Assembly (NCBI GenBank): GCA_027019605.1
Contig: JALUWJ010000043.1
Location: 1-64,000, forward strand
DNA from: Henriciella sp.
Lineage (GTDB): Bacteria > Pseudomonadota > Alphaproteobacteria > Caulobacterales > Hyphomonadaceae
Direction of reading: 5' to 3'
DNA: 64,000 nucleotides
Notes under the pieces: generated by a model
Told to the model about the DNA's origin: nothing
The model's database searches: none
What the model saw: the letters and a program-made list of their open reading frames with translations, nothing else
Part shown: one piece after another, positions 13,988 through 17,829 of the stretch
Position numbering within the stretch: the first letter of the stretch is position 1
Layout: every line of letters starts with the position of its first letter
Made by a program: the position numbers and the translations under genes

Positions 13988-15454
13988 ATGGGGCTGACGC
14001 ATGGGGTTGATGGGCAGAAAGCTGCACCCGAGACGGTTCAAGCCGTTGCTCATCAAGGTGCCAAAGCTATCTGGTCGAAGTCGCTGGACGCAATTGAAGC
14101 AGACACAAAACCGGGTAACGCGCAGCAATGGCTCACGGCCATTCGCTTTGTCGCTGAAGTTAACAATTCTATTGTCATCGCGGCACCGGATCAGCTGACC
14201 CTTGATCGGGTCACCTCGGATTTTGCTCGCCCGCTGCAACAGGCGTGGCGCAAACTGGATCCGAAGAACCGCCGTTTGAAGTTTGAGCTCTGGGGCCGAG
14301 TCCCAGAAGATGTGCGCGACGTTGTCGGCGATCCGTGGCTGAGTGAAGACGAAGCTGCAACGGTTGAAGCGGACGAGGTTCAGGCCGAGTATGAGGCTCT
14401 GGATATCGACCACGCGATGACCTTCGCGACATTGGTCTCTGGCCCTTCAAACGCACGCGCTGTCGGGCTTGGAAAACGCCTCGCAAAAGGCGCTCCGATT
14501 CCGGCTGGCGTGATCGTTATTTACGGACAGCCAGGCACCGGCAAAACGCATATTCTAAAAGCTATTGAAGCAGATGCGCAGGTGCGCGGCGACAAGCGTC
14601 GTCTAGCTTACATCTCGGCTGAAGAGTTTATGACCCGGTTCGTCAATGACTCTCGCTCTGGCGATACCAGCGCGCTACAAGCCTATGTGAAGCAGAACGA
14701 CCTTTTGCTGATCGACGATCTGCACTGGATTGCGGGCAAAGCGAAAACTGACAAAGCCTTCTTTGGCGCCCTGCGGGCCGTCACTTCAATGGGCGGTCAC
14801 GTGATCATCACGGCTGATGCTGCTCCAGGCGACATGGTTGGCCTGTCCAAAGAGCTTGCCGGTGAGATTAAAGGCGCGGCCTCGGTTGAAGTCGCCATGC
14901 CAGACAATGAGATGCGCAAGGCGATTGTTCGCCGCCATGTCGATCTGATCGCAAAGGATACCCCAAACTTTGCTCTCACCGACGCTATGGTTGAGCGCAT
15001 CATCGCAACCGTTCGCGGCGCTGGTCGTGAACTGTGCGGCGTGCTTTGGAGTTTGCAGCTCGAAACCGGTTATGGCGAACTCGCGCCGACCCCGGAAATG
15101 CTGGAAACCGTCATCCGCCGGATCGCGGGCGAGCCACGTACACCGACGCTTGATGATATTAAGCGGACTTGTATGGATCTGTACCGGATCTCTAAGACTG
15201 ACATTGAGAGCTCCAGCAAAGTCCGCACGATTTGCCATCCGCGCCAGGTCGCGATGTACCTTTCGCGCGTCATGACGGACAAATCTTTCCCGCAAATCGC
15301 GACGGCGTATAAGAAGAAAGATCACACGACCGTTCTGCACGCCTATCGCAAGATCAAGAAAGCCTTGGATAAGGGCGATCGCGATATGAGTGAGGAAATT
15401 GACCGGGTCAAAAATGCGGTCTTCGATCGTCTCGCTGGCCACGATCAGACCTGA
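13988..15454 (+). CDS. dnaA: Chromosomal replication initiator DnaA (strongly divergent)
   Basis: 488 residues. Domain I (about 24-100, AKAIWSKSLDAIE), short linker, AAA+ domain III with Walker A GQPGTGKTH (180-188), Walker B LLLIDDLHW (239-247), sensor I ITADAAP and sensor II Arg347 (GRELCG), then domain IV with DHTTVLHAYRKI (445-456) for DNA recognition. Context dnaA-dnaN-recF leaves no doubt about identity. Unusual: the Box VII segment that carries the arginine finger in other DnaA proteins reads SKELAGEIKG, with Glu289 and Glu293 where E. coli has Arg281 and Arg285. GGRDHTT is KKKDHTT and the position of E. coli Arg399 is Lys411. ATP binding looks intact; the inter-subunit ATP contact must differ. 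Preceded by GANTC sites. Confidence 0.95.
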   Translation: MGLTHGVDGQKAAPETVQAVAHQGAKAIWSKSLDAIEADTKPGNAQQWLTAIRFVAEVNNSIVIAAPDQLTLDRVTSDFARPLQQAWRKLDPKNRRLKFELWGRVPEDVRDVVGDPWLSEDEAATVEADEVQAEYEALDIDHAMTFATLVSGPSNARAVGLGKRLAKGAPIPAGVIVIYGQPGTGKTHILKAIEADAQVRGDKRRLAYISAEEFMTRFVNDSRSGDTSALQAYVKQNDLLLIDDLHWIAGKAKTDKAFFGALRAVTSMGGHVIITADAAPGDMVGLSKELAGEIKGAASVEVAMPDNEMRKAIVRRHVDLIAKDTPNFALTDAMVERIIATVRGAGRELCGVLWSLQLETGYGELAPTPEMLETVIRRIAGEPRTPTLDDIKRTCMDLYRISKTDIESSSKVRTICHPRQVAMYLSRVMTDKSFPQIATAYKKKDHTTVLHAYRKIKKALDKGDRDMSEEIDRVKNAVFDRLAGHDQT

Positions 15455-15601: not shown

Positions 15602-16720
15602 ATGAAACTGACGATCGAACGCGGCGCGCTTTTGAATGCGCTTGGACATGTCCAAAATGTCGTGGAACGCCGGAATACGATCCCGATCTTGTCGAACATC
15701 CTGATTGATGCGACCGGCAGTGAAGTCAAATTCACCGCGACTGACCTGGATATCGAGGCAGTCGATCATGCCGATGCCAAGATCGCCGATGCTGGCGCGG
15801 TCACGGCCCCAGCCGGAACCCTGTTCGACGTCATCCGCAAACTGCCCACCGGCGCTGACGTTGAGCTTGAGTTAAACCCAGAGAACAGACAGCTGGCGAT
15901 CCGCTCCGGCCGCTCCAATTTCTCTCTGCCGACCCTGCCTGCTGGCGACTTCCAAACCATGACGCCAGACGAGGATGCAACTGAGTTTGATCTCGAAGCC
16001 GCAGACCTTCGTCGCCTCATCGACAAGACACGTTTCGCGATCTCAACTGAAGAAACCCGTTACTATCTCAACGGTGTCTACCTCCACACGGCGGACACGG
16101 ATGGCGGCAAGAAGCTGCGCACAGTGGCGACAGATGGGCACCGCCTGGCCCTGTCAGAAGTCGACGCTCCGAAAGGCGCTGAGGCCCTCGAAGGCGTTAT
16201 CGTACCGCGCAAAGCGGTTGGTGAAGTTCGCCGCCTGATCGACAGCGATGATGGTGACGTCTCGGTATCCGTGTCTGACACGAAAGTCGTGTTCAAGTCT
16301 GGCCGCGCCCAGCTGACCTCAAAGCTGATTGATGGCTCATTCCCAGACTATGCGCGCGTCATTCCGAAAGGGAACGCGAAAGCGCTGATCATCGACAACA
16401 AACTGTTCGAAGCCGCTGTCGACCGCGTCGCAACCGTCTCTGCGGAGCGCTCGCGCTCGATCAAACTCTCGCTCGCAGAAGGCCGCATCACACTGGCCGT
16501 GAACAGCGCCGAGACCGGCCAAGGCCATGAAGAAGTTGAGTGCGACTATCAAGATGACGAAATGGATATTGGCTTCAACGCGAAATACCTGCTCGACGTC
16601 ACCGCGCAGATCGAAGCGGAAGATGCTCGGTTCCTGTTCAATGATCCGGCCTCCCCTGCCCTCGTCCTCGATCCGGGCGATGAGAGCGCGCAATACGTGT
16701 TGATGCCGCTCAGGGTCTAG
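15602..16720 (+). CDS. dnaN: DNA polymerase III beta sliding clamp
   Basis: 372-residue ring-forming processivity clamp; two subunits encircle DNA and tether polymerase III and other partners. The three clamp repeats are recognisable, beginning MKLTIERGALLNALGHVQ and ending YVLMPLRV, the typical C-terminal strand of the peptide-binding pocket. A GAGATG context with AAGGGATGATGAG upstream serves as ribosome site. Its stop TAG shares its last base with the GTG start of recF, so the two are translationally coupled. Confidence 0.97.
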   Translation: MKLTIERGALLNALGHVQNVVERRNTIPILSNILIDATGSEVKFTATDLDIEAVDHADAKIADAGAVTAPAGTLFDVIRKLPTGADVELELNPENRQLAIRSGRSNFSLPTLPAGDFQTMTPDEDATEFDLEAADLRRLIDKTRFAISTEETRYYLNGVYLHTADTDGGKKLRTVATDGHRLALSEVDAPKGAEALEGVIVPRKAVGEVRRLIDSDDGDVSVSVSDTKVVFKSGRAQLTSKLIDGSFPDYARVIPKGNAKALIIDNKLFEAAVDRVATVSAERSRSIKLSLAEGRITLAVNSAETGQGHEEVECDYQDDEMDIGFNAKYLLDVTAQIEAEDARFLFNDPASPALVLDPGDESAQYVLMPLRV

Positions 16721-17829
16721 TGACCGCCCTCACCCGCCTTCGACTGACCGACTTTCGCAGCCATGCGAGCCTAGACCTCAAGCTCGACGCGCGACCCGTT
16801 TGCCTGTGGGGCTCGAACGGCGCCGGCAAAACCAACATTCTTGAAGCGATCAGCCAGCTCGGACCTGGGCGCGGCTTACGCGCGGCAGCGCTGCCAGACA
16901 TGACGCGTCATGGCGGCGAAACCGGCTGGACCGTTTCCGCGACACTTGATGATGACCGCAAGATTGGCGTTGGGCTTGAGCGCGGCGCGACCGGCAATAA
17001 ACGCACCGTCCGCCTCGACGGCGCCCCCGCGACAGCTTCAGATCTTGCAGATCTGATCCGGATCGTCTGGCTCACACCAGCGATGGACAGCGTGTTCCGA
17101 GGCGGCGCCAGCGAGAGACGTCGGTTCTTCGATCGCCAGGTTATGGCGCACATTCCGGGGCATGGCAGCGTCTCAAGCCGCTATGAAAAAGCCATGCGGG
17201 AGCGCAATGCCCTGCTCGAACGGGGCCGTGTCGACCCGGCATGGGCGGACGCGATTGAGGGCCGTATGGCCGAGGCTGGTGCCCTGATCGCAAGCCACCG
17301 CGCGCGCGTCCTGACTGCCTTGCAGGAGGGTATCAATGCCCGCCCGGAAGGCTATTTCCCGAAAGGCGATCTGGCGCTTGAAGGCGAACCTGAGCAACTC
17401 GCAGGTGAAGGTGCGAGCCTGTTCGATATCCAAGATCTGATTGCGGAGTCGCTCGCCAAAGGGCGCTACCGCGACCAAGCTGCCGGACGGACACTCTCCG
17501 GGCCGCATCGCACCGACCTTACCGTCATTCACCGCCCGACGGGTGCCCCGGCCGGAGAGGCCTCAACCGGCCAACAAAAGGCGCTCCTGATTGGCTTGAT
17601 CCTCGCCAGTGCCCGCGCGCTATCAGAGGATGGCGCAGGCCCAAGCCCACTTATCCTTCTCGATGAAGCTGCCGCCCACCTTGATCGCGACCGCCGCGCC
17701 GCCCTGTTCGACGAGCTGATCGAGCTTGGCGGCCAGGCCTGGCTGACCGGGACGGAAGAATTCCTGTTCGAAGCGTTTGGAGATCGCACACAGCGGGTCG
17801 AGGTTCTGGCAGATGCGGACGCGCCGTAA
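16720..17829 (+). CDS. recF: DNA replication and repair protein RecF
   Basis: 369-residue SMC-like ATPase that helps load RecA at gapped DNA during recombinational repair. Walker A GSNGAGKTNILEA, ABC-type signature STGQQKALLIGL and Walker B LILLDEAAAHLD are all present, with the family start TRLRLTDFRSH. The GTG at 16720 overlaps the last base of the dnaN stop (TAGTG), which fixes the start. Gene order dnaN-recF is conserved widely. gyrB, often next, is here displaced by two genes. Confidence 0.95.
   Translation: MTALTRLRLTDFRSHASLDLKLDARPVCLWGSNGAGKTNILEAISQLGPGRGLRAAALPDMTRHGGETGWTVSATLDDDRKIGVGLERGATGNKRTVRLDGAPATASDLADLIRIVWLTPAMDSVFRGGASERRRFFDRQVMAHIPGHGSVSSRYEKAMRERNALLERGRVDPAWADAIEGRMAEAGALIASHRARVLTALQEGINARPEGYFPKGDLALEGEPEQLAGEGASLFDIQDLIAESLAKGRYRDQAAGRTLSGPHRTDLTVIHRPTGAPAGEASTGQQKALLIGLILASARALSEDGAGPSPLILLDEAAAHLDRDRRAALFDELIELGGQAWLTGTEEFLFEAFGDRTQRVEVLADADAP

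Follow-up and report, generated by a model that had tools for sequence, protein, structure and literature searches.

Work on E. coli and on thermophiles has led to the view that the arginine by which DnaA reads ATP is the core of bacterial initiation control. A dnaA gene whose product lacks this arginine lies in the 64,000-nucleotide stretch of Henriciella DNA analysed here (‘the window’; features in Table 1). The encoded protein matches, in order, Pfam DnaA_N (24.7 bits, cut-off 24.6), Bac_DnaA (108.4 bits, cut-off 23) and Bac_DnaA_C (79.2 bits, cut-off 31.5). The NCBIfam equivalog TIGR00362, the top scorer among the families listed, aligned over nearly its full length (E 2.7e-88) at 296.9 bits, short of the cut-off of 343.9. 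Identity to E. coli DnaA over domains III–IV has a median of 26.8% in the window's genus, against 49.8% in the class, and the best named relative by DnaA is a Henriciella MAG (L034, 97% identical). The initial annotation had described a normal dnaA–dnaN–recF setting and taken this gene to be the organism's initiator: Pfam matches do identify dnaN and a recF-like gene downstream, and a search for a second dnaA returned a single PF00308 match in the whole draft genome (G000; 3.37 Mb, 327 contigs, 84% complete, 5.28% contaminated). On dN/dS ratios of 0.018–0.078 against seven relatives, which are rough as dS was mostly >1 (in an eighth pair dS was saturated), dnaA is evidently under purifying selection. 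The window's DnaA is the working replication initiator of its organism. Elsewhere in the draft, a 115-aa frame (L002, G000:C67:8547-8726) scored 56.5 bits against PF08299; it holds the DnaA domain IV helix-turn-helix alone, and was rejected as a second dnaA.

Domain order, Walker A and B, sensors I and II, the domain IV helix-turn-helix and the dnaN/recF neighbours are all as in E. coli; unlike E. coli DnaA, the protein has no arginine in Box VII, and Lys and Ala replace R227 and L290. The glutamates reported at 289 and 293 were recovered from the ORF codons and placed at R281 and R285 by MAFFT. The range given for the segment, 14837–14872, does correspond to residues 284–295, whereas the peptide quoted for it, SKELAGEIKG, comprises residues 287–296 (14846–14875) and so runs three bases past that range. 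In five HMMER alignments to solved DnaA chains Box VII was free of gaps and Glu293 fell on the arginine of the SRF motif, which in the Aquifex chain 1l8q is residue 155 by count and, with an offset of 75, presumably R230. Alignment also upheld the retention of Walker A, Walker B and the sensor II arginine, and the two oddities noted in domain IV, KKK before DHTT and Lys at the R399 position. The latter was found in 29/29 genomes of the genus, in 4/8 other genomes of the family and in 2/103 of the class. Walker A holds Pro at residue 182, where 95/103 of the class have Val.

According to passages of PMC5742627, E. coli R285 is required for ATP-dependent assembly and for intrinsic ATPase activity, R281 contributes to complex stability, and R227 and L290 make domain III contacts. 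These four trans-interface residues all differ in the window's sub-clade (R227K, R281E, R285E, L290A). With Glu in place of each Box VII arginine, ATP sensing between DnaA subunits cannot use the arginines of E. coli, and to that extent the proposal that it works differently holds. AlphaFold2, given the window protein with eight related loci (nine sequences), returned a mean pLDDT of 54.7, falling below 50 over residues 275–305, too low for the model to be of use. A search of viral contigs for further DnaA sequences confirmed no relative.

Table 1. Features of the dnaA region in the window. Residue numbers are those of the window's DnaA unless E. coli is named.
Feature	Position	Strand	Basis or remark
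dnaA	13988..15454	+	488 aa; ORF; Pfam DnaA_N, Bac_DnaA and Bac_DnaA_C above cut-offs; sole DnaA detected in genome
Walker A GQPGTGKTH, K186 kept	14525..14551	+	alignment
Lys235 at E. coli AID-1 R227	14690..14692	+	alignment
Walker B LLLIDD (D243/D244), kept	14702..14719	+	alignment; E. coli D235/D236
Arg263 at E. coli N255	14774..14776	+	covaries with 285; candidate replacement basic residue
Sensor I Asp277 (E. coli D269), kept	14816..14818	+	alignment
Box VII segment, residues 284–295 (VGLSKELAGEIK), without arginine	14837..14872	+	ungapped against solved DnaA chains
Glu289 at E. coli R281	14852..14854	+	codon GAG; MAFFT against E. coli K-12 DnaA
Glu293 at E. coli R285 (arginine finger)	14864..14866	+	codon GAG; HMMER and MAFFT
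Ala298 at E. coli AID-2 L290	14879..14881	+	alignment
Sensor II Arg347 (E. coli R334), kept	15026..15028	+	Arg in 61/61 of order
Ser355 at E. coli R342	15050..15052	+	Arg/Lys in 97/103 of class, 0/61 of order
Domain IV Lys411 at E. coli R399	15218..15220	+	alignment
Domain IV Lys442–Lys444 replacing GGR before DHTT	15311..15319	+	alignment
dnaN (beta clamp)	15602..16720	+	Pfam
recF-like gene	16720..17829	+	RecF/RecN/SMC N-terminal domain

The loss, first described in this one organism, proved not to be peculiar to it. Within the order, DnaA was read from G000 and from 60 relatives, a sample of 61 genomes weighted to the window's family, from which 37 derive; a second DnaA in the assembly of G007 was excluded from these counts. 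A class-wide survey covered 144 genomes, two of them (G000 and G037) from the window's order; three gave no match. Of the other 139, which did, DnaA was read in 103 (the 30 best as loci and 73 hand-chosen, including most low-scoring ones), the remaining 36 including G181, whose only match was very weak (E 9.1e-4). ‘Caulobacterales’ is used here in the wide GTDB sense, which assigns the family containing C. crescentus-type DnaA (f2) to the same order as the window's genome; NCBI taxonomy instead places Henriciella under Hyphomonadales and Caulobacter under Caulobacterales. Families and genera carry the codes of the genome collection (f1, g1 and so on, f1 being the window's family), and the names attached to codes are deduced.

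Arg occupies the R285 position in 101/103 DnaA from other alphaproteobacterial orders, compared with just 7/61 genomes of the order (0/37 in the window's family, 7/24 outside it); the residue is thus absent in 54/61 overall and in 17/24 outside the family. The keepers are all six f5 genomes and one of f4. In its place f1 has Glu (34), Asp (1), Gln (1) or Val (1), f2 has His (6/6), f4 has Tyr, His or Leu, and f3 has Val, Ile or Asp. R281 is less affected, being Arg in 99/103 outside the order and in 43/61 inside it. Neither Box VII arginine is present in 18/61 genomes, among them the 14 genomes that make up the window's sub-clade, where each position holds Glu. Since the whole sub-clade shares the pair and all 37 family members lack R285, the two glutamates are not a matter of chance or base error. 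The positions of K178, D235, D236 and R334 are nonetheless kept in 61/61, and that of D269 in 55/61. As read from these alignments, the canonical Box VII finger has been lost across much of the wide Caulobacterales.

The six f5 genomes (L054, L060, L068, L069, L071, L072) retain both Box VII arginines; R227 is lost in 6/6, and the sensor I Asp is mostly lost as well (Ala 3, Glu 2, Asp 1), so decay of the interface has not followed one fixed order. A HemE tree of 60 genomes and E. coli (G029 gave no match), a quick tree with long branches, nested f5 among finger-less families with SH-aLRT support of 84–87; this topology is compatible both with a single loss followed by regain and with repeated loss. 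Outside the order, the sole two DnaA without R285 both have Leu (L189 of G103 and L191 of G116), and that of G116 also has His at sensor II. Three genomes from other orders of the class (G067, G079 and G128, 91–94% complete) gave no PF00308 match at E 0.001.

A second position, N255 in E. coli and situated between Walker B and sensor I, changes together with the finger. Its counterpart here, R263, is Arg in 37/37 family genomes, against Asn in 96/103 of the class. Among 108 proteins with R285, position 255 is Asn in 97, Asp in 8, and Glu, Lys or Gly in one each; among 56 without it, Asn does not occur, and the residues are Arg (38), Asp (5), Thr (4), Ile, Ala, Val and Met (2 each) and Gly (1). 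An acidic residue at 285 is always accompanied by Arg255 (36/36; 35 in f1 and one in G058 of f3). In an analysis of mutual information with APC correction (332 columns, 165 rows), which corrects in part for the relatedness of rows, the 255–285 pair ranked 2nd of 53,301, position 153 scoring slightly better with 285; after removal of f1 (128 rows) the pair ranked 11th of 53,301 and 255 became the top partner of 285. One position of the Walker A loop, 174, also scored high. On the HemE tree the presence of R285 changes at least three times and that of Arg255 twice. Tests on independent pairs reached no significance, just two pairs lying on well-supported branches, which is too few. Nor is the coupling strict: 5/56 proteins without R285 have Asp255, and 2/108 with it have Lys or Gly. 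With independent events this few, we tentatively read 255 and 285 as a structural pair that would be charge-swapped in f1, and R263 as the leading candidate for the interface's new basic residue.

Other candidates had been named for that role, and were rejected. R310 corresponds to E. coli R302 and is ancestral (Arg in 101/103 of the class), while R315 and R316 are not fixed in the family (Arg in 28/37 and 14/37); R263, present in 37/37 and covarying, fits better.

The partner that inactivates DnaA presents the reverse picture. Hda, or HdaA, the RIDA factor, is an AAA+ paralogue of DnaA that donates an arginine finger. HdaA was read in 57/61 genomes of the order (G024 and G042 gave no match, G048 and G056 weak partial ones), and all 57, G000 included, have Arg at the finger position (R153 of E. 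coli Hda). In G000 itself (G000:C221, L152) the protein carries the finger motif DLRSRL and an N-terminal RQIPIKF, which resembles a clamp motif; its name comes from NF051883 (E 7.5e-21, 75.3 bits, under the cut-off of 300). By contrast with the finger, the Walker A Lys of HdaA has given way to Leu, Val or Ile in 28/28 genomes read from the window's genus. Of eight other f1 genomes, three have lost it, four have Lys and one Arg, so that Lys is absent in 31/36 read of the family, compared with Lys in 21/21 of f2–f5; E. coli Hda itself has Arg at this position. As far as sequence goes, in the window's genus the two proteins are mirror images, DnaA lacking the finger but retaining the ATP site, HdaA retaining the finger but lacking the Walker A Lys. 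Retention of the HdaA finger is no special response to the loss in DnaA, since families with and without the DnaA finger both keep it.

C. crescentus offers a comparison in which mutants have been described. When 24 bases of the primer that PMC3193534 gives for the start of dnaA were searched for, 3/299 f2 genomes matched. The DnaA so found has 490 aa, Arg357 in TDSVRELEG and a C-terminal TRKLRG, in agreement with the residue number and primers of that paper, and is taken to be that of C. crescentus. It has His298 at R281, His302 at R285 and Thr272 at 255. It therefore shares with the window's protein the absence of both Box VII arginines, as well as an HdaA with a finger (according to passages of PMC3836487), but differs in having His rather than Glu, Thr at 255 and canonical residues at 227, 290, 399 and 432; the f2 HdaA (six genomes read), unlike that of the window's genus, keeps the Walker A Lys. 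Excerpts from three papers report that R357A, equivalent to E. coli R334, causes over-initiation (PMC3193534), that HdaA with its finger R145 changed is no substitute for HdaA (PMC3836487), and that a DnaA allele unable to bind ATP fails in partitioning (PMC6399470). In so far as these excerpts go, nucleotide state appears to matter in C. crescentus despite a DnaA of the finger-less type.

The reading that we favour, with a probability of about 0.57, is of a working initiator that has lost the canonical finger, in which the ATP switch would survive, the finger of HdaA would trigger hydrolysis and the interface would have been rebuilt. DnaA would still bind ATP, and its ATP or ADP state would still matter. 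In RIDA, HdaA at the clamp would contribute in trans the arginine needed to complete the ATP site for hydrolysis. The head-to-tail contact between DnaA subunits would be rebuilt around the charge-swapped pair, R263/E293 in the window's family, and ATP would there be read by R263 or some other new basic residue, or no longer be read at all. Loss of the finger from DnaA while HdaA keeps its own suggests an ATP switch used differently from that of E. coli. The dispensability of E. coli R285 for RIDA, stated in passages of PMC5742627, agrees with the favoured reading, yet RIDA is no test of it. A more far-reaching version, which we advance tentatively, would have one AAA+ active site split, in the window's family, between two proteins, DnaA holding the ATP and HdaA the finger, the latter having given up its own ATP-binding lysine in the window's genus and some others; the ATP timer would be read solely by HdaA at the replisome, and assembly at the origin would be independent of the neighbour's ATP or would proceed via a relocated finger, R263, of charge-swap origin.

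The finger might instead merely have moved, a nearby basic residue replacing R285 and assembly remaining unchanged in kind. In the family this residue would be R263, in the sub-clade K295 or K288, and in f2 an Arg at E. coli K283; fixation of R263 in 37/37, of Lys or Arg at 287 and 280 in 14/14 of the sub-clade, and of Arg at 283 in 6/6 of f2 is what such a shift would leave behind. Separate families would, however, require separate rescue residues, other E. coli interface residues have changed too (L290 and, in the sub-clade, R227), and R263–E293 may be a mere internal salt bridge, which together make simple relocation rather doubtful. It is also conceivable that assembly is blind to ATP, a few adequate boxes sufficing without ATP-dependent DnaA–DnaA contacts and ATP serving stability, HdaA or other functions. 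That a finger-less DnaA can initiate is known from E. coli, where oriC(allADP) rescues the lethality of DnaA(R285A) (Grimwade 2018, as recounted in passages of PMC6727663), although that is a laboratory construct on an altered origin, whereas here the loss is natural and family-wide. The putative origin of the sub-clade, with few box sites within ~400 bp, points the same way; but with the cis ATP residues kept in 61/61, ATP-blind assembly seems unlikely. Finally, misalignment, assembly error, a pseudogene or a canonical second dnaA elsewhere could mimic the loss, and is hardly credible. The genome is an incomplete draft, and the assembly of G007 does carry a second DnaA with canonical residues, including R281 and R285. 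Yet the alignment is ungapped, the loss recurs in 37/37 family genomes, dN/dS is below 0.08, and the single-contig relatives G018 and G028 have one PF00308 match each. The second copy of G007 (L073, G007:C13) lies on a 12.5-kb stretch of 63% GC, against 53% around the first copy, and no DnaA in the set shares more than 37.7% identity with it; it is likely, though unproved, to be a contaminant.

If the favoured reading is true, models of the DnaA-ATP filament are not transferable to Caulobacter as drawn, and the role of ATP on DnaA becomes approachable by changing two residues; the covariation of 255 and 285 supplies a concrete contact to seek in DnaA structures. Among titles, abstract openings and passages of papers, no published statement of finger loss in the DnaA of Caulobacterales was found; subscription reviews lay outside this search, and an earlier mention is possible.

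The origin probably lies away from dnaA, beside hemE on another contig, a placement assumed by analogy with Caulobacter. In the window, TTATCCACA with at most one mismatch occurs eight times against 6.39 expected, no excess over chance. Upstream of hemE (L250, G000:C190), compared in 10 of the 14 sub-clade genomes, all ten share an unbroken ACAAGCCCTGTGGATGNNTTGTGGA block containing two box cores 11 bp apart. A second pair of boxes ~175 bp on has at least one site within two mismatches in 8/10. Within ~400 bp, the putative origin holds the first pair of cores, which is head-to-tail and strongly conserved, the second pair, which is less so, and a further box-like site. Sites of the TTAA (CtrA-like) and GANTC types were also noticed there by eye, uncounted. 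The degenerate first two positions of the boxes may be linked to Lys411 at the R399 position.
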